Source: Desulfosporosinus sp. Sb-LF
GTDB lineage: Bacteria > Bacillota > Desulfitobacteriia > Desulfitobacteriales > Desulfitobacteriaceae
Reading direction: 5' to 3'
DNA: 64,000 bases
Assembly (NCBI RefSeq): GCF_004766055.1
Contig: NZ_SPQR01000008.1
Coordinates: forward strand, 62,001 to 126,000
Under the pieces are notes generated by a model, which was not told the origin of the DNA, made no database searches, and saw only the letters and a program-made list of their open reading frames with translations. Positions 29,727 to 42,116 of the stretch are shown piece after piece. Position 1 is the stretch's first letter; the number at the start of each line of letters is the position of its first letter. The position numbers were made by a program, and so were the translations under genes.

Positions 29727-29781
29727 CTGGTGGTTTTAAATAGTCGTGGTTTAATCATATGTAGTGAAAGGAAGAAGTCTA

Positions 29782-30057
29782 GTGAAAGAGGTAGATCCTG
29801 AAGAAGTATCACGGATTCTGACTCGTCTTAAAACAGTGCGTGGACATATTTCGGGAGTTGAACGAATGATGGAAGAAGAGAAGAGTTGTGAAGAAATATT
29901 ACTACAGCTTGTCGCCATTCGTTCTGCTATACATAAAGTATCTGTTATTGTTGCACAACGGTATGCCAATACGTGTATAATTGAGGCAATCGACCAAGGG
30001 GAGAATCGTCAAGAGGCTCTTAACAAGGCGATTGAAACATTGATGAAACTCAATTAG
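29782..30057 (+). CDS. CsoR/CstR-family transcriptional repressor
   Basis: 91 residues from GTG 29782 (AAAGGAAG eight bases upstream). All-helical DUF156 repressor: LKTVRGHISGVERMMEE is the conserved helix. Counting from this start the ligand positions are Cys36, Tyr61 and Cys65. Copper-sensing CsoR needs Cys-His-Cys at these positions; a Cys pair 29 residues apart without the His is what persulfide-sensing CstR has. This points to reactive-sulfur rather than copper sensing, which is inference. A matching C-tract/G-tract dyad sits before the sulfur operon at 33271. Confidence 0.85.
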   Translation: MKEVDPEEVSRILTRLKTVRGHISGVERMMEEEKSCEEILLQLVAIRSAIHKVSVIVAQRYANTCIIEAIDQGENRQEALNKAIETLMKLN

Positions 30058-30117: not shown

Positions 30118-30273
30118 ACTATCTTGGGAATTGAGGGTCGACGTAACTGATAAAATTAAACGTATGAGGGATAAAAGACTGTTATATTATAGGGAATTTG
30201 TGGTTTGTCATTGATTTATTTCCTAACTTTGGATATACTTGATTTGAGCATATGCCCAAAAGGAGCTGATCTA

Positions 30274-30756
30274 ATGTCAAGGCAGCGTTGTTGTGGCCTG
30301 ATCGACGATGCAATAGTTTGCCAAACATTTATTCCTCTGGGACAGTCCTGTTTGCAGGAAATAATAATCCTACTAGAGGAACTTGAGGCCATTCGTCTTA
30401 AAGACAAAGTGGGTTTGGATCAAGTCGAATGTGCAGCGTCTATGGGGGTTTCCAGAGCTACGTTTCAGCGAATTTTAGGCTCAGCTAGGTCGAAAGTTGC
30501 CACTGCTTTAGTCGAAGGACGACCAATTATCATTCGAGGTGGTAACTATTTGATGAAAAATCGGGTGTTTGAGTGCGTTGGATGCGCCCATGTATGGGAG
30601 GTCGAGCCATGCGCTTTAGGAGGTAAACACGGATATGAAATCGCTTGTCCCAATTGTGGGAGCATGAAGAAGATGAAGCTAAACAATGGGACTAAGCATG
30701 CCTGTGGCAGTGGTCATAATGATGGGCATGGCAAGGGTGGATGCTGTTCATCTTGA
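30274..30756 (+). CDS. DUF134 putative DNA-binding protein with zinc ribbon
   Basis: 160 residues. The N-terminal DUF134 helix-turn-helix region (LEELEAIRLKDKVGLDQ, then AASMGVSRATFQRIL) is followed by a cysteine-rich C-terminus (CVGCAHVW, CPNCG) and a Gly/His tail ending GKGGCCSS. ATG 30274 follows AAAGGAG at 30259-30265. DUF134 commonly neighbours NifX-like and Mrp genes, as here, suggesting control of iron-sulfur or metal-cluster handling. Confidence 0.85.
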   Translation: MSRQRCCGLIDDAIVCQTFIPLGQSCLQEIIILLEELEAIRLKDKVGLDQVECAASMGVSRATFQRILGSARSKVATALVEGRPIIIRGGNYLMKNRVFECVGCAHVWEVEPCALGGKHGYEIACPNCGSMKKMKLNNGTKHACGSGHNDGHGKGGCCSS

Positions 30757-30804
30757 GCGATTTAGAACAGAGGGCCTAAAATAATTATTATAGGAGGGTT
30801 CATT

Positions 30805-31185
30805 ATGTCAAAAAAGATTGCGATTCCAACAAACGGTGAAGTTCTAGATGCTCATTTTGGACGAGCAGCGGGATTTTCAGTGTTCGAAATCGAGGGCGAT
30901 CAAGCTCGTTTTATGGAATTACTAAGTTCAACAGGTCTACAGCACCAACATGCAGGACTCGCAAATATGTTTAAGAGTAAAGGAGTCGAGGTGCTCGTCT
31001 GCGGTGGAATTGGTGGGGGCATGATTAACGGCCTTAATGCTGTGGGGCTTGAAGTCGTATCGGGTGCCTCTGGAAACGTGGTTGATGTAGCAAATTTGTA
31101 TGCCCAGGGTAAGATTGTGAGTACCGGATCTATCTGCGCACATGATCATGGTGATGGACATGATCACGGACATCACCACCACTAA
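30805..31185 (+). CDS. NifX/NafY-like cofactor-binding domain protein
   Basis: 126 residues of the dinitrogenase iron-molybdenum cofactor family: IAIPTNGEVLDAHFGRAAGF at the start and VLVCGGIGGGMINGL in the middle. A His/Asp-rich C-terminal tail (HDHGDGHDHGHHHH) probably binds metal. TAGGAGGG precedes the ATG. No nitrogenase genes are present, so it is more likely a metal-cluster carrier for other enzymes. Confidence 0.88.
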   Translation: MSKKIAIPTNGEVLDAHFGRAAGFSVFEIEGDQARFMELLSSTGLQHQHAGLANMFKSKGVEVLVCGGIGGGMINGLNAVGLEVVSGASGNVVDVANLYAQGKIVSTGSICAHDHGDGHDHGHHHH

Positions 31186-31360
31186 GTTATAGTTCTAAGC
31201 ATTTCTTTATCCTCTTGGAGTTCCTAGGAGCGCAAATTAAGTAATAAAGGAAGGAACGGAGACAAACTTGACAAGAGAAGAATCACGGTAGTAATATAAA
31301 TTTGGCTTATTATCCCTTATAAGAGGTAAAAGCCGATGATTAGAAAGGGAGGCATTTTCT

Positions 31361-32215
31361 GTGAGCGAGTCGTGCCATAGCTGTTCAGCAGCAGGTTCCT
31401 GTACCACTGAAAGTTGTTCCACTGAGCCCCAAAAGACAAAGGCTCAAAAAGCAAGCCACGTTGACAAGGTCATTGCAGTCATGAGCGGCAAAGGAGGCGT
31501 CGGTAAATCCTCAGTTACTGGTATGTTGGCTGTAAGCTTAATGCGCCAGGGATATAAAGTAGGGGTTTTAGACGCTGACATAACTGGGCCAAGTATTCCT
31601 AAAATCTTCGGTGTGACAGGAAAAGCAGGTGCCAGTGAGGGAGGAATCATTGCTCCAACAAGCCGCGGTGGTATTAAAGTGATGTCGTTAAATCTTATGA
31701 TAGAAAATGAAGATGATCCAGTAATTTTACGTGGACCACTCATTTCTCAGCTTGTCAACCAGTTTTGGACGGATGTAATTTGGGGTGACCTGGATTATTT
31801 ATTAATTGACATGCCTCCTGGTACGGGGGATGTGCCGATTACGGTATTCCAATCGTTACCTATCAACGGAATTGTTATGGTGACAAGTCCACAGTCATTG
31901 GCTAACATGGTGGTGCGAAAAGCGATCAAAATGGTACGAAACTATAAACCGCCAATTTACGGATTGGTCGAAAATATGGCGTATGTGCAATGTCCCGATT
32001 GCTCTAAGAGGATCGAAGTTTTTGGGAAGCCCAAAGGCCAGGAAGCAGCGGATCGTAATTCTATTCCTTATTTGGGAGAGCTTCCGCTTGACCCAGCATT
32101 GGCTGAGTTATCGGATGCAGGCAAAATCGAAGATTACCAATCCTCCGGTTTTGATCAAATTGCGAAGCATTTAGCTGAACAGATCAAATCGAACGGTGAT
32201 AAGAATCTGGCCTAA
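31361..32215 (+). CDS. Mrp/NBP35-type ATP-binding Fe-S carrier protein
   Basis: 284 residues. A cysteine-rich N-terminus (CHSCSAAGSC) precedes the deviant Walker A MSGKGGVGKSS, the DMPPGTGD motif and the CPDC pair at about residue 211 that binds a bridging 4Fe-4S cluster in the dimer. Predicted cytosolic Fe-S scaffold/carrier. GTG start 31361 with AAAGGGAGG upstream. In the same direction as the NifX-like gene, 175 bases away. Confidence 0.92.
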   Translation: MSESCHSCSAAGSCTTESCSTEPQKTKAQKASHVDKVIAVMSGKGGVGKSSVTGMLAVSLMRQGYKVGVLDADITGPSIPKIFGVTGKAGASEGGIIAPTSRGGIKVMSLNLMIENEDDPVILRGPLISQLVNQFWTDVIWGDLDYLLIDMPPGTGDVPITVFQSLPINGIVMVTSPQSLANMVVRKAIKMVRNYKPPIYGLVENMAYVQCPDCSKRIEVFGKPKGQEAADRNSIPYLGELPLDPALAELSDAGKIEDYQSSGFDQIAKHLAEQIKSNGDKNLA

Positions 32216-33338: not shown

Positions 33339-34202
33339 GTGAAAAGAAAAAAGTTGTCTACATTAGCCTTAGTCTTTGGGGTATTCGGTGTTGTTCTTCT
33401 AGGTTCTTTTTGGCTAACGACGCCAAAAGATACCCAGGCTGCCTGTGGGGCATCAACCTCCTCCTGTAAAACCTGTCATGAGGTTCAAGGATCGGATCCC
33501 GTCTCCAAAAAGGGGGATTGGCATACCCAGCATGCCTTCGGGGATTTTTGCCAGGCTTGTCATGTTGGAGTAGCAACGGAAACGGACAAGGCTAAAGCTC
33601 ATGTAGGAGTCGTCGCAAAGCCCCTTGCGCAACCGGGACAATCCTGTGCATCCTGTCACCCTGCAGATGCAGCAGCTCGGGTCGCAAAATATGGCGGAGC
33701 TGCAACAACTTCAACTTCTACAGGAACTAACCCTGCAGAACCAGGCGCCTCAGCGGCTGGAACGGCTCCCGCGACAGGGACTGGAGCAGTCACTCCGTCT
33801 CCTGCAGCAACGCAAGTTCCGCCCAGCGCAAATCCTAACTTTGACATCCTAGATTTCAACAAAAGTGGTAAATTACCCTGGCTGGCTTGGGCGATCGTCA
33901 TCGCAGACATCTTGGCACTCTTGGTTTTAGCTGTCCTGCTCTGGAAATGGAAAAAAGGGTTATGGCCCTGGGCCTTCGCGCAAGGAAAGCACAAGAATGT
34001 TCCATTTAACACTCTGCCACTGGAAGTTCAAGACGTATTCACCCAATTACTAAAAGGAGACATGCACACTGTCTTGGCTCTCCAAAAAATTCTAGAACGT
34101 GAACACGGGAGTCTATTGTTGCAAGCCATCACAACGATGGATGAAAACGAACTTAAGTCTTTGGCCTTGTTAGGTGAGAAGAATGGAAAGGGGGAGAATT
34201 AA
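33339..34202 (+). CDS. three-haem membrane-anchored cytochrome c
   Basis: 287 residues. Signal/anchor helix at 7-26; three CXXCH haem sites (CKTCH, CQACH, CASCH) between about 42 and 108; a Ser/Thr/Ala/Pro linker (about 120-168); a second helix (about 182-202); and a cytoplasmic tail. An extracytoplasmic electron carrier tethered to the membrane. GTG start 33339 behind GTGAGGTGAGGAG. First gene of the operon; its tail ends three bases before the first YeeE gene. Confidence 0.88.
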   Translation: MKRKKLSTLALVFGVFGVVLLGSFWLTTPKDTQAACGASTSSCKTCHEVQGSDPVSKKGDWHTQHAFGDFCQACHVGVATETDKAKAHVGVVAKPLAQPGQSCASCHPADAAARVAKYGGAATTSTSTGTNPAEPGASAAGTAPATGTGAVTPSPAATQVPPSANPNFDILDFNKSGKLPWLAWAIVIADILALLVLAVLLWKWKKGLWPWAFAQGKHKNVPFNTLPLEVQDVFTQLLKGDMHTVLALQKILEREHGSLLLQAITTMDENELKSLALLGEKNGKGEN

Positions 34203-34204
34203 CA

Positions 34205-34735
34205 GTGTCCTTTAATGAGAAGATGAAGGAAAAAGTATGGTCCCCTTGGGCAGCAGGAGTTCTTTTGGGACTGACTGCCATCGCTTCCTATGTTTTGGTC
34301 GACAAAACCATTGGCTCTTCAGGTGGCATTGAGAGTATTGACAGTATCCTTTTAAAAACATTTCATTTAAACTTGGCCAATTCTATGTACTTCAAATTCC
34401 AGATGCCACCGGTTGTTAGTTTTCAAATCGTACTCTTTGCAGGCATGCTGCTGGGGGCGTTCGTGTCGAGTAAATGGTCTAAGGATTTTAAGTTCAGAAT
34501 GATGCCGGATCAGCAATGGACACAGAACTTTGGACCCAGTAAGCTGAAGCGTTGGGCGTTGATTTTTCTTGGTGGGATCATAATCGAGTATTCCGCGGGC
34601 ATTGCCGGAGGGTGTACGAGTGGTTTAGCTATTTCAGGAACGATGCAACTATCTCCAGCTGGACTGCTCTTTATAGCAGGACTGTTCGTGTCAGGTATCA
34701 TCACGACAAAGATTTTGTATGGAGGTGATTATTAA
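34205..34735 (+). CDS. YeeE/YedE-family sulfur transporter, first half
   Basis: 176 residues with five predicted helices. The family signature GGCTSGLAISGTMQLSPAGLL (key residues GGC at about 138-140) is intact. TsuA/YeeE proteins import thiosulfate by relay through membrane cysteines; YedE homologues are proposed selenium transporters. Here the usual single protein is split in two genes. GTG start 34205 follows GGGGAG. Ends one base before the second half. Confidence 0.88.
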   Translation: MSFNEKMKEKVWSPWAAGVLLGLTAIASYVLVDKTIGSSGGIESIDSILLKTFHLNLANSMYFKFQMPPVVSFQIVLFAGMLLGAFVSSKWSKDFKFRMMPDQQWTQNFGPSKLKRWALIFLGGIIIEYSAGIAGGCTSGLAISGTMQLSPAGLLFIAGLFVSGIITTKILYGGDY

Positions 34736-34736
34736 T

Positions 34737-35315
34737 ATGACAACGTATGTTGCCCCCTTAATCATTGGCTTTTTCTTCGCGTTCGCTCTTCAAAAGGCGG
34801 GTCTAGCTCACTATCATAAGATCGTCAATCAATTTCGGTTTAAGGATAATACCATCATGAAACTTATGATGACGGGGATCTCAGTGGGACTTGTGGGTCT
34901 CTATACTCTGAAAGATCTTGGTTTTATCCAACTCGACCAAGTTTCTTCCACTTATATAGTTGGAAACCTTCTTGGTGGGCTGCTTTTTGGGGTCGGTATG
35001 GCCATCGCCGGCACGTGACCGGGTACATTGATCACAGGTTGTGGTCAGGGAAATTTAGACTATTTGATTCCGGGAATTTTAGGTTTTCTCGTTGGTGGGG
35101 TTATTTTTGGGGCCACTTACCAATCGATTTTCATGAAAATATCGACCATTGGCTCCTACGGTCAAAAAACTCTGGAAGATCTTCTTAATGTCAATCATTG
35201 GCTGTTCATCTCGCTCTTTGTCCTGTGTACTATTGTGTTCTATGTGGGTTCAAAAATTATGGAGAAGTCTAAAGGCGCTTCAAAGACACAGGTCAACGAC
35301 TTAAACGTGAATTAA
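34737..35315 (+). CDS. YeeE/YedE-family transporter, second half, selenocysteine-containing
   Basis: 192 residues if UGA at 35016-35018 is read as selenocysteine (residue 94). Upstream sequence ends GMAIAGT and downstream begins PGTLITGCGQGN in the same frame, so the junction AGT-U-PGT reproduces the AGTCPGT motif of the family with Sec replacing the essential Cys. Helices continue on both sides with no loss of coding character. GGAGGTGA (34721-34728) precedes ATG 34737. A hairpin with the expected spacing follows the UGA. A gene-prediction program would report two truncated genes. Confidence 0.87.
35016..35050 (+). promoter_or_regulatory. UGA selenocysteine codon with bacterial SECIS-like hairpin
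   Basis: UGA at 35016-35018. UGAUCAC (35029-35035) pairs with GUGGUCA (35041-35047; six Watson-Crick pairs and one U-G) around the loop AGGUU. The apical loop begins 18 bases after the UGA, inside the range known for bacterial SECIS elements, and has G in its first two positions like the fdhF loop. Confidence 0.75.
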
Positions 35316-35348: not shown

Positions 35349-37559
35349 GTGTCCAAAGTGTATACTTGGAATCAATTGTTCAGCCGCCGTCAGTTTATTA
35401 AAGGAACTGCCGCAGGTGCAGCTCTGGGCGCTACCGCTGGCTTTGGGCTTCTAGCGCCGGGAACCAGCGTTGGTGCGAGTCAAGATTCAGCGCAGACATC
35501 AGCAACGGGTGCAAAGATGGTTACCACTATTTGCGAGCAGTGTGTATGGCGGTGTGGAGTAATAGCTAAGGTCGAAAATGGCGTAGTGAAGAAGTTGGAA
35601 GGGAATCCTGATCACCCCAATAATTTAGGAAAGCTATGCCCTCGTGGGAATGCAGGCATAGAAACAATGTATAGCCCGGATCGCATTAAATTCCCAATGA
35701 TTCGGGCAGGGGCAAGAGGGAGCGGCTTGTGGCGTAGGGCTTCTTGGGATGAAGCTTTGAGCTATACGGCAGACCAAATGAAGAAAATCAAAGACAAGTA
35801 CGGCGCTAAGGCTATGATGTTCAACTCTACGGATAATTTATCTCAACCGTTTTTTGAGATTCTGCTTAAAGCCTATGGAACTCCTAATTACGGCACGCAG
35901 CGAAGTTTGTGTTTTAATGCCATGACAACCGGATTTCTGTATACCTACGGTGTACCGCAACCGGGGACAGACTATAAGAATTGCAAGTATATGATTTTCA
36001 CGGGCAGAAATCTGGCGGAGGGAATTTCCAATAACGAAACTCAGGAAATGATCGAAATGGTGGCTAGAGGGGTTAAGGTCGTTGTACTTGATCCACGTTT
36101 CAGCAAGACGGCGGCGAAAGCGACAGAATGGCTGCCAACGCGTCCTGGTACAGATTCGGCCTTCTTCCTTGCAATGATTAATGTCATCATAAATGAAAAA
36201 TTGTACAATACAACGTTTATCAAAAAGTATACTCAGGGTTTCGAAGATCTGACCACTGAAGTGAAGGACTATACGCCTGAATGGGCGGAGCAGAAATGTG
36301 AGATCGCAGCAACGACCATTCGCAGGATCGCGCGGGAGTTTGCAGCTGCTGCTCCTGCGGCCATTGCCCATCCTAACTGGAGAACGTCTAACTTTGTGAA
36401 TTCGTTCCAAACAGAACGATCCATTGCCGTGCTTAATGCCCTGATGGGCAACTGGGCACAGCCGGGCGGACTCATTCCTGACCAGGAAATCAACACTGCT
36501 AAGCTTGGAGTTCTGTCCCATCCCCCCTTCCCGATGGCTCAGGGAATGCGCCTTGATGGAGTTCCTTGGCAGTATCCCATGGTACCCTTATCCTATGGTG
36601 TCATCCAGACGATGCGGGATAATATTTTAACGGGTAAACCGTATGAGGCCAAAGGATGGTTAATTTCTAGGCAAAATCCAATCCTCTCGATCCCAGAACG
36701 ACAAAAAACAATTAATGCTTTTATGAAGTTGGATTTTGTGGCAGTCATCGATATTCAAGCAAGCGACACAGCGTATTATGCGGATGTGATTTTGCCAGAA
36801 TCTAGTTATCTCGAACGCTATGACGGTTTAGTACCGATTGGGAATAAAATATTTGTCCGTCAACCCGTGATAGAGCCTTTATATGATACCAAAAGTAGCT
36901 TAATGATCTATAAGGAACTGGCGGATAAGTTAGGACTGGGAGAGTTCCTGCCCTATAAGGATGAAAAGGATCTCTTAACACGGCAACTCAAACCGTTTTC
37001 AGTAAGCTTAGAGGAACTACAGCGTGCAGGGCACTATGTCGTTAAAAATCTAAAGGAAGACCATTCCAAGGACTTCGAATTTCAAACTAGCAGCGGAAAA
37101 GTGGAAATTTCCTCAAGTATAATGGCTCAGATGGGCAAGAAAGCGGTACCCACCTGGAATGAACCGCCCCGCCCAGCGTTAGATCACTATTATCTCTTGA
37201 CGGGAAAAACTGCCCAGCACTCTCAGATGTTCACACAGAACAATCGCTGGCTACTGGAAGTCTTTCCTGAAAATCGGGCCTGGTTGCACACTTCAGTAGC
37301 CGCCAAGCTCGGGGTTAAGAAGGATGATCAAGTGGTGTTGGAGAGTGAAGTCGGCAAGGTGAGTATTAAAGCCTATGTAACAGAGGGTATACGTCCGGAC
37401 TGTATCTTCATGGTCGGAGGGTTTGGGCACATAAGCAAAGGACTTAAATCTGCTTATAAGCTTGGAGCAAGTGATTCAGCCCTACACAAGACCATCACAG
37501 ACCCGATCTCGGGAGGTTCGGCCTTGAGTGAAACCTTTGTAACAGTGAGTAAGGCGTAG
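35349..37559 (+). CDS. molybdopterin oxidoreductase, PsrA/PhsA-like catalytic subunit
   Basis: 736 residues. Twin-arginine signal SRRQFIKGTAAGAALGATAG (residues 12-31) sends it across the membrane folded. CEQCVWRCGV followed by LCPRGNAG binds a 4Fe-4S cluster. The molybdenum ligand candidate is the Cys in QRSLCFNAMT (about residue 190), as in polysulfide/thiosulfate reductases. The C-terminal MGD domain has LTGKTAQHSQ. GTG start 35349, eight bases after AAAGGAGG; the ATG at 35347 is out of frame. Substrate inferred as a sulfur compound from the transporter next door; arsenate or tetrathionate cannot be excluded. Confidence 0.9.
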   Translation: MSKVYTWNQLFSRRQFIKGTAAGAALGATAGFGLLAPGTSVGASQDSAQTSATGAKMVTTICEQCVWRCGVIAKVENGVVKKLEGNPDHPNNLGKLCPRGNAGIETMYSPDRIKFPMIRAGARGSGLWRRASWDEALSYTADQMKKIKDKYGAKAMMFNSTDNLSQPFFEILLKAYGTPNYGTQRSLCFNAMTTGFLYTYGVPQPGTDYKNCKYMIFTGRNLAEGISNNETQEMIEMVARGVKVVVLDPRFSKTAAKATEWLPTRPGTDSAFFLAMINVIINEKLYNTTFIKKYTQGFEDLTTEVKDYTPEWAEQKCEIAATTIRRIAREFAAAAPAAIAHPNWRTSNFVNSFQTERSIAVLNALMGNWAQPGGLIPDQEINTAKLGVLSHPPFPMAQGMRLDGVPWQYPMVPLSYGVIQTMRDNILTGKPYEAKGWLISRQNPILSIPERQKTINAFMKLDFVAVIDIQASDTAYYADVILPESSYLERYDGLVPIGNKIFVRQPVIEPLYDTKSSLMIYKELADKLGLGEFLPYKDEKDLLTRQLKPFSVSLEELQRAGHYVVKNLKEDHSKDFEFQTSSGKVEISSSIMAQMGKKAVPTWNEPPRPALDHYYLLTGKTAQHSQMFTQNNRWLLEVFPENRAWLHTSVAAKLGVKKDDQVVLESEVGKVSIKAYVTEGIRPDCIFMVGGFGHISKGLKSAYKLGASDSALHKTITDPISGGSALSETFVTVSKA

Positions 37560-37570
37560 GAGGAGAAAAT

Positions 37571-38146
37571 ATGGCTGTTCGCATGGGATTTGTCATCATT
37601 ACCTCGCGCTGTATCGACTGCGATGCTTGCATGGTGGCTTGCCGCGCGGAAAATGACGTGCCCATTGGTAAAACGCGAAATTGGGTGAAAAGTAGCGGAG
37701 TTCAGGGGAAGTTCCCCAATGTTAAGGAAGTCTTTCGTCCTGGAAACTGTATGCATTGTGAGCATCCTCCTTGTGTCTCCGTATGTCCGACTGGGGCTTC
37801 TTATAAACGTCCAGATGGGATTGTTTTAGTCGAAGCCCGTAAATGCATTGGGTGTAAATACTGTATCACGGCTTGTCCGTATGATGCTCGCTTTGCTAAT
37901 CCTGAAACGGGAAAGGCTGACAAGTGTACTTTCTGTCTACAGCGCTTGGAGCAAGGACTTCAGCCAGCGTGTGTTCAAACATGCTTAGGAAAATCCCGCC
38001 AGGCAGGCGACCTAAATGACCCGAATAGTGTCGTTTCGAAACTGATCGAAAAATATCCGACCCGTCAGTTGCTTAAACAAGTGGGAACGGGTCCAAATAT
38101 ATATTATATTGATGACGTGGTTCCAGAAATACCCGTGGGCAAATAA
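37571..38146 (+). CDS. PsrB/DmsB-like four-cluster ferredoxin subunit
   Basis: 191 residues with the full set of cysteines for four 4Fe-4S clusters: CIDCDACMVAC, CMHCEHPPCVSVC, CIGCKYCITAC and CTFC...CVQTC. Carries electrons between the NrfD-type membrane subunit and the catalytic subunit. No Tat signal, so it is exported with PsrA. GTAGGAGGAG precedes the ATG. Confidence 0.95.
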   Translation: MAVRMGFVIITSRCIDCDACMVACRAENDVPIGKTRNWVKSSGVQGKFPNVKEVFRPGNCMHCEHPPCVSVCPTGASYKRPDGIVLVEARKCIGCKYCITACPYDARFANPETGKADKCTFCLQRLEQGLQPACVQTCLGKSRQAGDLNDPNSVVSKLIEKYPTRQLLKQVGTGPNIYYIDDVVPEIPVGK

Positions 38147-38169: not shown

Positions 38170-39066
38170 GTGGAAATAACATGGGGCTTATTGATTGTTA
38201 TTTACCTCTTCACAGCAGGAATAAGTGCAGGAGCCATGGTTACGTCCAATCTTGCCTTGCTCTATGGCGGCCAAGATTATGAGCGCGTTGGCCGTTGGGG
38301 TGCCTTTATTTCACCCTTCCCCATTTCCTTTGGTTTAGGGGTTCTTTTACTAGATCTAGGGAGTCCATTTAACTTTTATCGCTTATTCATGACGTTGCAG
38401 GTCAGGTCCCCGATGTCTTATGGAAGTTGGGCAATTCTCTTATTCTCATTATTGAGTGTTATCTATCTTTATCTCTGGCTTCCGGAAAAATTTCGGATTT
38501 TTGGGCAGAAGAAATCCTTGGAAAAATGGAAAAAGGGCTTAGCTAAAGGGATGCCTTTCTTATCAGTAGGTGTGGCATCGTATACCGGACTTCTGCTTAA
38601 TGCCGCCGTACGTCCCTTATGGACTGTTCCCTTGTTGCCCGTGTTATTTTTAGTCTCTGCTTTGTCGACAGGGGTTGCGTCCGTGATTTTCTTTGCTGCT
38701 CTAAGTCCATGGCAACGTGCAAGGCACAAAGAATTGCATGTTTTGACCAAGGCTGACGCTTTGCTCATTATTCTGGAATGCTTTATACTATTAATAATGA
38801 TCGTAATGGGCAGACTCAGTTCGGCTAGCGTCTCGAATGCCTTTGGAAGTCTGTTATACGGAGAGTTCGCAGTAATTTTCTGGGTTATGAGTGTCGGACT
38901 CGGGTTGTTTGTCCCCTTTTCGTTGGAGTACCTGGAATTGAAGGACAAAATTCCTGTTCGTTGGACGTTACCTGTGACTATCAGTAGCAGTTTTCTAGTT
39001 CTTTTTGGTGGATTTTTTGTACGTTATATTATAACTTACGCTGGGCAATGGAGTAGCTGGTTTTAG
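38170..39066 (+). CDS. NrfD/PsrC-like membrane quinone-binding subunit
   Basis: 298 residues, eight predicted helices, no haem ligands, typical of PsrC/NrfD (TAGISAGAMVTSNLA, SPFPISFGLGVLLLDLG). Oxidises menaquinol and passes electrons to PsrB. GTG start 38170 after AGGAGGGAG. Completes a three-subunit reductase with the two preceding genes. Confidence 0.9.
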   Translation: MEITWGLLIVIYLFTAGISAGAMVTSNLALLYGGQDYERVGRWGAFISPFPISFGLGVLLLDLGSPFNFYRLFMTLQVRSPMSYGSWAILLFSLLSVIYLYLWLPEKFRIFGQKKSLEKWKKGLAKGMPFLSVGVASYTGLLLNAAVRPLWTVPLLPVLFLVSALSTGVASVIFFAALSPWQRARHKELHVLTKADALLIILECFILLIMIVMGRLSSASVSNAFGSLLYGEFAVIFWVMSVGLGLFVPFSLEYLELKDKIPVRWTLPVTISSSFLVLFGGFFVRYIITYAGQWSSWF

Positions 39067-39107
39067 TTTAAGTGGTGAGGGTTTGTGAGAGGAGGCAGGG
39101 GAACAAT

Positions 39108-39551
39108 ATGCCAGAATGGACAAGACGCGCGGTGTTGCGTTTAGCGTGGGTTGGAATTGTCGCTGCTGGTGCCCTGACAATCAAGCCTCTTGCAGAGTAC
39201 CTCACCAGTAATGAGGACCGCGTGCGATCTCCTTTAGTGTTCTATGACAAACCACTTGATGAAAATAGTGACTGGCAGTACACCTCCGCTTCTCGGGTGT
39301 GGGTAAAGCGGGACACATCGGGCATTATGGCCTTGGTTGCGACTTGCACTCATCTGGGCTGTGAAGTGAATTATCATCCGGAAAAGAAAGAATGGCTTTG
39401 TCCTTGTCACGGTAGCATTTATGACTCAGAGGGCAGGCCAATATCGGGACCTGCCCCTAAAGCTATGACGAGAGTGGCGGTAGAACGCAAAGCGGATGGA
39501 TCTCTTATCATCAATACTTCGAAACAAGTTGGATTGGATGCATGGCTATGA
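39108..39551 (+). CDS. Rieske 2Fe-2S protein
   Basis: 147 residues with an N-terminal anchor helix (about 9-27) bearing a twin-arginine-like start (TRRAVLRL). The cluster boxes CTHLGC and CPCHGS are exact, and the Pro loop is GPAPKAMTRV. Start is ATG 39108, behind GAGGCAGGGG. It oxidises quinol at the Qo site and passes electrons outward. The stop overlaps the cytochrome b start (ATGA). Confidence 0.94.
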   Translation: MPEWTRRAVLRLAWVGIVAAGALTIKPLAEYLTSNEDRVRSPLVFYDKPLDENSDWQYTSASRVWVKRDTSGIMALVATCTHLGCEVNYHPEKKEWLCPCHGSIYDSEGRPISGPAPKAMTRVAVERKADGSLIINTSKQVGLDAWL

Positions 39552-40240
39552 AAGACAAAATTACGATAACGAGTGAGGATATCGTAACAGAATCAATCTC
39601 GGAACAAGTAACTGAACGTTACAAGAAAAACTTTGTAAACCATATTAGACCCCGTTTTGTCCCTGACGGAGTCTTATCCGTACTCTATACGTTTTGTCTA
39701 GGTGGGTTGTCTTTCCTAGCCTTTATCGTTTTGGGGGTAACGGGACTTCTGCTAATGTTTCACTATCAACCAGGAGAAAGCACTGGTTTCAACAGTATTT
39801 TAACGTTAGCTTCCGTGATTCCATACGGTGGGGTCATTCGGAATTTACACTACTGGGCTGGCCAGCTCATGGTGGTTACCGTAAATCTACATATGCTACG
39901 GGTCGTCTGGACCCATTCCTACAAGTCACCTAGGCAACTCAATTGGTTGGTCGGCGTGGGACTGCTAATTCTCATCTTGGTTTTGGATTTTACCGGATAC
40001 TTACTGATCGGATCCCAAGAAAGTGGTGCGGCTGCAACCGTGGCCGTCAATATTTTGGGGTTAATCCCTGGCTTCGGTGTTGCACTGGGGCAGATTTCGC
40101 TCGGCGAACCTTCGTCATTAAGCGGAAGTACTCTAGTGGTGTATGTATGGCATTGTGTCGGTCTACCTATGATTGCGTTGATACTACAGTTCTATCATTT
40201 CTGGCGGATTCGTCGTGATGGGGGAGTTCGTCCGCTCTAA
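39542..40240 (+). CDS. cytochrome b6-type subunit
   Basis: 232 residues, four helices. The haem ligands are visible as RNLHYWAGQLMVVTVNLHMLR (first and last His 14 apart, helix B) and VWHCVGLPMIALILQFYHF (helix D). FCLGG at residues 51-55 matches the cytochrome b6 YCLGG element whose Cys binds haem c(i) covalently, so a b6f-like Qi site is likely. ATG 39542 or 39548 is possible; 39548 gives the ATGA overlap with the Rieske gene. Confidence 0.92.
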   Translation: MAMKDKITITSEDIVTESISEQVTERYKKNFVNHIRPRFVPDGVLSVLYTFCLGGLSFLAFIVLGVTGLLLMFHYQPGESTGFNSILTLASVIPYGGVIRNLHYWAGQLMVVTVNLHMLRVVWTHSYKSPRQLNWLVGVGLLILILVLDFTGYLLIGSQESGAAATVAVNILGLIPGFGVALGQISLGEPSSLSGSTLVVYVWHCVGLPMIALILQFYHFWRIRRDGGVRPL

Positions 40241-40252
40241 GGGGGAAACCAA

Positions 40253-40618
40253 ATGGCCCGCTCACAAATAAGACACCTCAAGGAAAAAGAAGGGATCGCT
40301 ACACTGTTTTTTCTCGTAGTTTGTATTGCTCTGGCCTTAGAATTTTCGCCTAGTGTCGGAACGAGCAATTTGGCTTCCGCCGTTACACATGCCGTTGCTC
40401 CTTGGATTTTTGGACCGTTTCAAGTTCTTTTATTGTACCTTCCTCCTTGGTTAGGCGCACTAATTGTCCCGATTCTAATCATAGCCGGACTTTTAGGGTT
40501 ACCTTGGCTCGTGGATTATATCGGAACCAAGTGGGGTCAAGTGATCTTCAGCACTCTCTACGGATTTGTCCTACTCCTTCTGCTGTGGTTTATGGTCAAA
40601 GAATTGTGGTGGATTTAA
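40253..40618 (+). CDS. cytochrome b/b6f subunit IV-like membrane protein
   Basis: 121 residues, three helices (about 16-31, 56-82, 93-117). The segment VAPWIFGPFQVLLLYLPPW resembles the subunit IV/C-terminal cytochrome b PxW(Y)FxPxYxLL region that flanks the Qo site; the PEWY motif itself is not seen, PPWL being in its place. GGGGGAAA precedes the ATG. Position after cytochrome b6 supports the assignment. Confidence 0.8.
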   Translation: MARSQIRHLKEKEGIATLFFLVVCIALALEFSPSVGTSNLASAVTHAVAPWIFGPFQVLLLYLPPWLGALIVPILIIAGLLGLPWLVDYIGTKWGQVIFSTLYGFVLLLLLWFMVKELWWI

Positions 40619-40619
40619 T

Positions 40620-42116
40620 ATGAAAAAAACATTCTTGCTTGCAAGTCTTTTATTAATACTGATCGTGATTCTAGCACTGAACCAAGAGAACACGCCAAGT
40701 TGGACTCGTTATCAAAAAGAATATTTTACGGAGCAAATCTCAAACTTGCAAGTTCAGCTCGGTACTGTAGACGATCCAACTAAGAAAGACCAGCTTCAGC
40801 AAGAACTTGCAAGTTATCAAAAGCGTAAGCCTGAGATCATCAACATTGTTCTTCCCAATGGAAAGGTCGAGCGTTGCAAAACTTGCCACATTGGAATTGA
40901 AGAAATATCGAACTCTCATCCCAGCAATACGTTTGGGTGTGCGGTGTGCCATGGCGGAAACCCTCTCTCGCTTGACAAAACGACGACCCATGCCCAAATG
41001 TATGGGGGAGGGCATCCGGGTTCACTCGATGTCGTCTCTTTAAGCTGCGGAGGAACAGGGGCGAATGGGGTATCTTGTCACGCAGGTAATCATGAACAGG
41101 CCAAAAATGAAGCCGATCTCGTGAAGACCTCGATCATGTCCACGAAGGCAGGAGAACTCAGTGTTGTGCGAATGATGTTCGGATACGATAAATCCAAGGA
41201 TATACCGGGACTCACCAAGGGGCAGGTAGGATTTCTTTATCCTAACCCGCTGCAGGGACGACCGAACGAAAAAGATTTCCGACAGAACTGCCTCAGTCAG
41301 TGTCATCAAAGCGGAGGGGTTCTTCCAACTTCTATATCGACAAAGAATCCTAACCCAGAGAGAACTCAAGGTAAGGGACAGGTCGAATCGAAGGATATAC
41401 AAGGGAATGGCTGTGAGGTATGTCATGTCTTGACTAATCCTACTCATACTTACATTGGTGCCGATACGACCATAAAGTCCAGTAAGATTGGGCGAGGAAT
41501 GGTCCATAGTCTAACGACTCAAATCCCTTATACCCAGTGTAATCAGTGTCATAACCAAGGGAACCATGATCCTTTAAAAATGAGTTTTGCTATTCGTACA
41601 GATATGACAGAGGTCGTTAGCGACTGGAAAGCTGGAGATATAAATTGGCTAGATCGCCTCAAAGATTACTATTTACCCGGTGAAATTTTTGCTCAGTGTG
41701 AAGTGAGTCTGGACTGCATCGATTGTCACACAAGACAAGACGTTATGGGAGATAACAAGCTCCATACCTCTCAATATGATGCGGTGCATCTGCAGTGTCA
41801 AGATTGTCATGGTACCAAGGAAGCCCTTCCCCGAACCAAGCAAATCGAGGATCCTAATGACCTAGCGTTTGAGGAGAAGATAACAAATCCGAAATTCCCA
41901 GAGTTGAAAAATGGGGATGAAATCCTGATGACGGTAAAAGGAGAGGAATTGCCCTTCAGTCGCCATCAAGGAAGCGATTGGGTACAGAGTAGCCGTGTAA
42001 CAGGCAAGACCTTCAAAATACCCTTAGTCTATGGAAGCAAGTGCCAGCAATCCCTCATGCAACAGGGAGCGGATTCGTGCCATAAATGCCATAACCGAAG
42101 TGCCTTACACCCATAA
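40620..42116 (+). CDS. extracytoplasmic multihaem cytochrome c
   Basis: 498 residues from ATG 40620, which begins just after the preceding stop. An uncleaved-type signal helix (4-19) and a short coiled coil precede seven CXXCH motifs (CKTCH, CAVCH, CEVCH, CNQCH, CIDCH, CQDCH, CHKCH). CLSQCH is a CX3CH variant; CGGTGANGVSCH (CX9CH) and CQQSLMQQGADSCH (CX11CH) may be further unusual sites. Presumed electron acceptor of the Rieske/cytochrome b complex, or terminal reductase. I do not recognise a named family. Confidence 0.88.
   Translation: MKKTFLLASLLLILIVILALNQENTPSWTRYQKEYFTEQISNLQVQLGTVDDPTKKDQLQQELASYQKRKPEIINIVLPNGKVERCKTCHIGIEEISNSHPSNTFGCAVCHGGNPLSLDKTTTHAQMYGGGHPGSLDVVSLSCGGTGANGVSCHAGNHEQAKNEADLVKTSIMSTKAGELSVVRMMFGYDKSKDIPGLTKGQVGFLYPNPLQGRPNEKDFRQNCLSQCHQSGGVLPTSISTKNPNPERTQGKGQVESKDIQGNGCEVCHVLTNPTHTYIGADTTIKSSKIGRGMVHSLTTQIPYTQCNQCHNQGNHDPLKMSFAIRTDMTEVVSDWKAGDINWLDRLKDYYLPGEIFAQCEVSLDCIDCHTRQDVMGDNKLHTSQYDAVHLQCQDCHGTKEALPRTKQIEDPNDLAFEEKITNPKFPELKNGDEILMTVKGEELPFSRHQGSDWVQSSRVTGKTFKIPLVYGSKCQQSLMQQGADSCHKCHNRSALHP

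Follow-up and report, generated by a model that had tools for sequence, protein, structure and literature searches.

Can selenocysteine (Sec) occupy the place of a sulfur-carrying cysteine in a membrane transporter? This question is raised by a gene of Desulfosporosinus sp. Sb-LF that lies in a stretch of 64,000 nucleotides (contig NZ_SPQR01000008.1, positions 62,001 to 126,000; hereafter the window) and that is interrupted by a single TGA codon. The original prediction, made from the letters of the window, read this codon as Sec in a YeeE/YedE-type transporter half-gene. Here, we compared the gene, the RNA element downstream of its UGA and its neighborhood with those of homologs in other genomes. 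All operon features described below are on the forward (+) strand, and positions are those of the window.

An in-frame UGA and its downstream hairpin

The region from 34737 to 35315 is one continuous frame whose sole interruption is the TGA at 35016–35018 and which is terminated by the TAA at 35313–35315, in agreement with the earlier description of two same-frame ORFs parted by this codon alone. Its ATG at 34737 is preceded by a Shine-Dalgarno sequence, GGAGG, at 34721–34725, and the stop of the preceding gene lies at 34735. Translation with TGA as Sec gives a protein of 192 aa with the stretch AGT-U-PGT, i.e., Sec at the cysteine of an AGTCPGT motif. This placement was borne out by an alignment of homologs, in which column 94 is invariantly Cys or Sec (81/81), encoded by TGA in 44 and as Cys in 37 sequences. 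Of 20 close homologs in the window's family, 19 have TGA and one has TGC at this codon. Five further Bacillota families (f3, f36, f37, f41, and f76) proved to contain TGA forms in a phylum sample of 398 genomes, and samples of 400 and 396 genomes revealed many more in Chloroflexota. A plasmid search returned two distant matches and nothing else. UGA at this site is thus common to more than 50 homologs from several Bacillota families and Chloroflexota, so that a sequencing error turning TGT or TGC into TGA, raised as a caveat with the original prediction, does not account for it.

The part of the gene beyond the UGA appears to be maintained as protein-coding sequence. In 18 Desulfosporosinus-type Sec genes, pN/pS was 0.119 for the 60 codons that precede the UGA and 0.125 for the 50 that follow it, indicating equally strong purifying selection on either side. 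In the same genes, codons +4 to +10, which contain the hairpin, are nearly devoid of synonymous change.

The predicted 7-bp hairpin is indeed present in the sequence: its stem (TGATCAC/GTGGTCA) starts 11 nt past the UGA and grows to 9 bp around a GGU loop once A-U and U-G pairs are added. The resulting bacterial SECIS-like hairpin spans 35028–35048, with a core stem at 35031–35036/35040–35045 and the loop at 35037–35039. Like the SECIS of E. coli fdhF, it has a GGU apical loop at an offset of 21 nt from the UGA; unlike in fdhF, the encoded protein is a different one and the lower stem sequence is not the same. Of the 2262 TGA trinucleotides on both strands of the window, only UGA 35016 and one other precede a GG-loop hairpin of this quality. 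An Rfam search gave no match of interest, and the plain fold of 61 nt of the single sequence was no better than that of shuffles (z 0.08). Because this fold energy is unexceptional, the evidence for a SECIS consists of position, loop, and comparative covariation. In 26 distinct Sec-form sequences, 94.9% of the cells of the six-pair stem are paired, and at three pairs A-U is replaced by G-C or C-G through double changes (26 cells with double changes). Stem covariation reached 0.482, compared to 0.259 (sd 0.028) in shuffled alignments; none of 500 shuffles attained the observed value, and slid stem registers gave at most 0.259. In our first set, the hairpin folds after the UGA in 31/31 Sec forms and the fixed-register stem is broken in 11/11 Cys forms; a few Cys forms collected later, notably L146 and L151, retain the hairpin. 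Overall, the comparison supports a SECIS-like reading of this element.

The genome (G000; 4.27 Mb, 99.99% complete) also encodes the machinery for Sec insertion, the absence of which had been named as a point against the prediction: selA (560.5 bits), selB (334.7 bits), the tRNA-Sec gene selC (65.3 bits; ARAGORN anticodon TCA), and selD (410.7 bits), the latter with an in-frame TGA of its own. A second selD-like gene (L019, C4:32862–33701; 351.7 bits) has a TAA near its start and lacks an in-frame N-terminal catalytic segment; it is possibly a decayed paralogue. We found selA in all TGA genomes tested, with strong matches except in G026 (78% complete), where the match is a fragment at a contig end. 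Among genomes with Cys forms, selA is absent from a Deferribacteraceae and two Fimbriimonadales (G049, G050, and G051) and present in some others (G027, G358, G498, and G667).

A TGA that acts as a real stop, in a pseudogene or between two separate short proteins, or that stems from a sequencing error has in its favor that a standard gene finder would cut the gene in two at this codon and that a true nonsense TGA is known at a Trp position of a distant paralogue (G395), but since more than 50 species have TGA at this codon, purifying selection is equally strong past it, the hairpin covaries, and every TGA genome tested has Sec machinery, such readings are refuted by conservation and effectively excluded, with a vanishingly small probability. 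On comparative grounds, 34737–35315 is therefore confirmed as a genuine selenoprotein gene, as first observed, and Sec is very likely incorporated at UGA 35016. Unless curated, the gene is predicted to be shown as two truncated ORFs in every UGA species.

In a tree of the 81 sequences, a single clade (support 99/89) holds all 44 Sec forms together with 14 Cys forms, and all other Cys forms lie outside of it. Most of the Cys rows nested inside the clade have a broken hairpin. The Sec/Cys label requires 11 changes on this tree compared to 27 in shuffles, which is most simply read as a single ancient gain of Sec followed by repeated replacement of Sec by Cys. Two Chloroflexota loci, L151 (TGT; G1175) and L157 (TGA; G1150), are 95.7% identical over 530 nt, have identical hairpins, and are separated at the key codon by a single base, which marks them as a recent natural Sec/Cys exchange. 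In a Chloroflexota sub-branch of the Sec clade (L165, L166, and L168), the key Cys is followed by AAP rather than PGT (CAAP for CPGT); these are the Cys forms within the clade that no longer have the PGT motif.

Two half-genes and the proposed relay cysteines

The Sec protein matches Pfam family PF04143 (Sulf_transp) with 83.8 bits over profile positions 10–161, and the gene directly upstream (34205–34735; 176 aa) matches the same profile with 75.2 bits over positions 167–309, both above the gathering score of 27 bits. Since the two genes match complementary parts of the profile, they represent one YeeE/TsuA-type transporter split in two, with the C-half first. Wherever a UGA-clade locus has enough flanking sequence, the C-half directly precedes the N-half. 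Thus, the assignment to a YeeE/YedE half-gene stands at the level of the family and can be refined to the N-half of a two-gene transporter.

A PDB sequence search aligned Sec94 to Cys91 of Spirochaeta thermophila TsuA (StTsuA/YeeE; PDB 6LEO, 6LEP, 8J4C, and 8K1R; E 3e-7 to 8e-9). In StTsuA, Cys293, Cys91, and Cys22 are arranged in a row across the membrane, 8.6 and 6.7 Å apart, and this row has been proposed as a thiosulfate relay (PMC11073785). By homology, Sec94 would replace the middle relay cysteine. The original prediction of a residue that carries sulfur through the membrane agrees with this alignment, and it is from the alignment that we infer the relay role. The probable equivalent of Cys293, based on motif and invariance, is Cys137 of the C-half (codon 34613–34615), which lies in AGIAGGCTSG, is invariant in 21 aligned C-halves, and is never encoded by TGA; the C-half gave no significant PDB sequence match. 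In contrast to StTsuA, which is one chain with three relay cysteines, the transporter described here is encoded by two genes and has Sec at the middle site, an extra Cys at +4/+8, and no equivalent of Cys22, the corresponding residue being Ala24 in the window protein and non-Cys across alignment A1. Moreover, no YeeD-like gene was seen among the operon neighbors.

Against the TsuA/YeeE equivalog models NF052577 and NF041049, the N-half (P0001) scores 52.6 and 44.6 bits, far below the cut-offs of 400 and 645, which are hard to reach because the gene is split and a half protein is scored. On these scores thiosulfate is a candidate rather than an established substrate.

We also searched 398 genomes for Sec in the C-half. 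The one in-frame TGA found, in a paralogous C-half (L182 4253–4696; G395), replaces a Trp and was rejected as Sec; it is a probable nonsense mutation and could be misread as Sec in searches for read-through.

Operon context and the cysteine downstream of Sec94

The two half-genes are embedded in an operon with the order membrane cytochrome, C-half, N-half (Sec), PhsA, PhsB, NrfD, Rieske protein, cytochrome b, and multihaem cytochrome, which is conserved in Bacillota and Chloroflexota whether the transporter has Sec or Cys, although some genes have been lost or have diverged. The first gene (33339–34202) encodes a membrane-anchored multihaem c-type cytochrome, as indicated by CxxCH motifs, a weak Cytochrome_C7 match, and its conserved position. 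The Sec gene is followed by a molybdopterin oxidoreductase gene (35349–37559; PF00384, PF01568, PF04879, and TAT_signal) whose product is PhsA-like; with 609 bits against the PhsA model NF012032 it misses the equivalog cut-off of 694, so that thiosulfate is a candidate substrate only. Given its Tat signal, this enzyme is probably active on the outer side of the membrane. Further downstream are genes for a PhsB/TtrB-like ferredoxin subunit (37571–38146; family profile matches), an NrfD-like membrane quinol subunit (38170–39066; PF03916), a Rieske iron-sulfur protein (39072–39551; PF00355), and an ExtP-like cytochrome b (39542–40240; PF00033; NF040969 245.8 bits, cut-off 290). A small membrane protein (40253–40618) had no family match in profile searches and, by its conserved position, would form the second part of the cytochrome b module. 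The last gene (40566–42116) encodes a multihaem c-type cytochrome (Cytochrome_C7) with an ExtM-like C-terminal half (NF040943 126.9 bits, cut-off 800), and its true start is probably near 40617.

Elsewhere in the window, a CsoR-family repressor with two Cys (29764–30057; PF02583) could be a CstR-type persulfide sensor controlling nearby sulfur genes. DUF134, NifX-like (Nitro_FeMo-Co), and Mrp/NUBPL ATPase genes occupy 30205–32215, and DUF134, NifX-like, and Mrp genes are also found 5′ of the operon in many Desulfosporosinus relatives.

Eight residues past Sec94, the TGT codon at 35040–35042 encodes Cys102, a candidate partner thiol. A Cys at +4 (UPGTC) and/or +8 (UPGTLITGC) from Sec is present in all 44 Sec forms of alignment A5, compared to 8 of its 37 Cys forms (Fisher p = 5e-15, without correction for phylogeny). 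The 21 UGA forms of a Chloroflexota class scan, which were gathered after the pattern was noticed, conform without exception. With 8/37 carrying it, the statement that Cys forms never have the partner was rejected as too strong, and the alignments indicate that the partner Cys can also occur where Sec does not. We likewise rejected a partner forced by the SECIS alone, as other Sec forms have Gly or Ser at +8 and instead bear their Cys at +4, which lies outside the core stem.

AlphaFold2 predictions of the half protein alone had a pLDDT of 47 with 23 sequences and a moderate mean pLDDT of 69.9 with 81. In the latter model, a transmembrane helix ends at residue 91 and a short helix spans residues 95–103, which would therefore place Sec at the N-cap and the +4/+8 positions one and two turns on. 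A Foldseek search with the half-protein model gave no convincing PDB match; a useful one was not expected, because the model represents half of a pseudo-twofold protein.

Taken as a whole, the explanation that we favor with considerable confidence is a genuine selenoprotein gene whose Sec94 occupies the middle place of a sulfur relay. The hairpin at 35028–35048 would direct SelB and tRNA-Sec to insert Sec at UGA 35016, and the product would be the N-half of a two-subunit YeeE/TsuA-type transporter for which the preceding gene supplies the C-half. The exported PhsA-like enzyme would make or use reduced sulfur species (thiosulfate, polysulfide-type sulfane sulfur, or sulfite), which would be handed through the membrane by transient contacts, first with the C-half Cys equivalent to Cys293, second with the Sec94 selenol, and third with the cysteine that follows Sec by one or two helical turns (+4 or +8). 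This last Cys may stand in for the missing Cys22, or it may resolve Sec as a selenenylsulfide. The sequences themselves establish the Sec-decoding signals and their breadth, conservation and selection, the family, the identity of the relay column, and the operon. Relay role, substrate, and direction, as well as the role of the second Cys and the selenenylsulfide, are what we infer, and movement of reduced sulfur species between the PhsA-like enzyme and the cytoplasm would be the most economical function.

A plain relay, in which the +4/+8 Cys simply replaces the third relay cysteine (Cys22 of StTsuA) and the central Sec tunes affinity, is a serious contender that we place just short of probable. 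The consistent lack of a Cys at the Cys22 position argues for it, as do R98 and E101 of StTsuA, which follow shortly after Cys91: since these residues are at the cytoplasmic surface, the +4/+8 positions would lie between Sec and the cytoplasm. However, L062, L090, and L103, which have the same operon type, possess neither Cys22 nor a +4/+8 Cys.

Alternatively, Sec94 and the downstream Cys could form a redox-active selenenylsulfide in a membrane unit that is redox-active or transfers sulfur rather than serving as a passive ion relay, e.g., one that exchanges sulfane sulfur or electrons with the PhsA/cytochrome complex. The occurrence of the partner in every Sec form (44/44 in A5 and all 21 of the class scan), the predicted short helix with Sec at its N-cap, the loss of the partner in several Sec-to-Cys replacements (L062, L069, L090, and L103), and an operon rich in redox proteins are consistent with this view. 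Nevertheless, the +4 Cys is retained in 7 of the 14 Cys-encoding rows of the Sec clade, the +8 Cys falls within the SECIS stem, where constraint on the RNA might account for it in part, and the homologous Cys91 of StTsuA has been described as a relay site and not as part of a disulfide (PMC11073785). We therefore regard the redox-active pair as rather unlikely.

The sulfur relay can also be weighed against a cargo of selenium compounds (selenite or selenide), as for YedE/FdhT. The Sec protein weakly matches YedE/FdhT (30.2 bits, cut-off 350) and seleno_YedE (TIGR04112; 22.6 bits, cut-off 200), and the cytochrome b and multihaem cytochrome resemble ExtP and ExtM of Geobacter. Yet both scores are far under the curated cut-offs and TsuA models score higher; moreover, the operon enzyme is PhsA-like and Cys versions are found in the same operon, which makes a selenium cargo improbable. 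The Geobacter extHIJKLMNOPQS cluster shares the Rieske, cytochrome b (ExtP), and multihaem (ExtM) neighbors; deletion of extI impairs selenite/tellurite reduction, and ExtKL is itself a predicted selenocysteine cytochrome (PMC5877670, PMC6148476). In contrast to the window, no YeeE or PhsA homolog is listed for that cluster, and the window proteins score below the Ext cut-offs.

Relation to known selenoproteins

Most characterized selenoproteins are redox enzymes, many of them with thioredoxin-like folds (PMC13188914). A predicted Sec-containing YeeE/YedE protein with the motif GUxSG is nevertheless listed in reviews (PMC13188914, PMC9312934), so a Sec-containing member of this family, for which the original prediction left open any earlier description, is already on record, although with a motif other than the [TFY]UPGT seen here. 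The listed protein (WP_012471001.1) belongs to the same Pfam family and also has one Sec replacing a conserved Cys; it is set apart by the description of its motif from the [TFY]UPGT of our N-half gene. GUxSG would fit GGCTSG of the C-half, where we always find Cys, but also GGCASG in the N-half of StTsuA. NCBIfam contains no model specific to the UPGT clade, and our literature search, the scope of which did not extend to two relevant Haft papers, retrieved no other report of a UPGT-type Sec YeeE/YedE. The UPGT Sec site, the split architecture, the partner Cys, and the reductase operon look undescribed, with the GUxSG site compared by motif only.

In its most far-reaching form, the locus would encode a split sulfur transporter whose pore holds an essential Sec-Cys pair, a selenenylsulfide relay that couples sulfur translocation to the PhsA/Rieske-cytochrome b operon and is ancestral to the Bacillota and Chloroflexota clade. 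We consider this doubtful; if true, passage through the membrane would depend on selenium at this step. With Sec at its chalcogen-handling site, a transporter of this kind could be used to ask directly whether selenium chemistry accelerates or gates the cysteine relay proposed for YeeE-type transporters, and natural Sec/Cys pairs that are one base apart at the key codon, such as L157 and L151, make this question testable.
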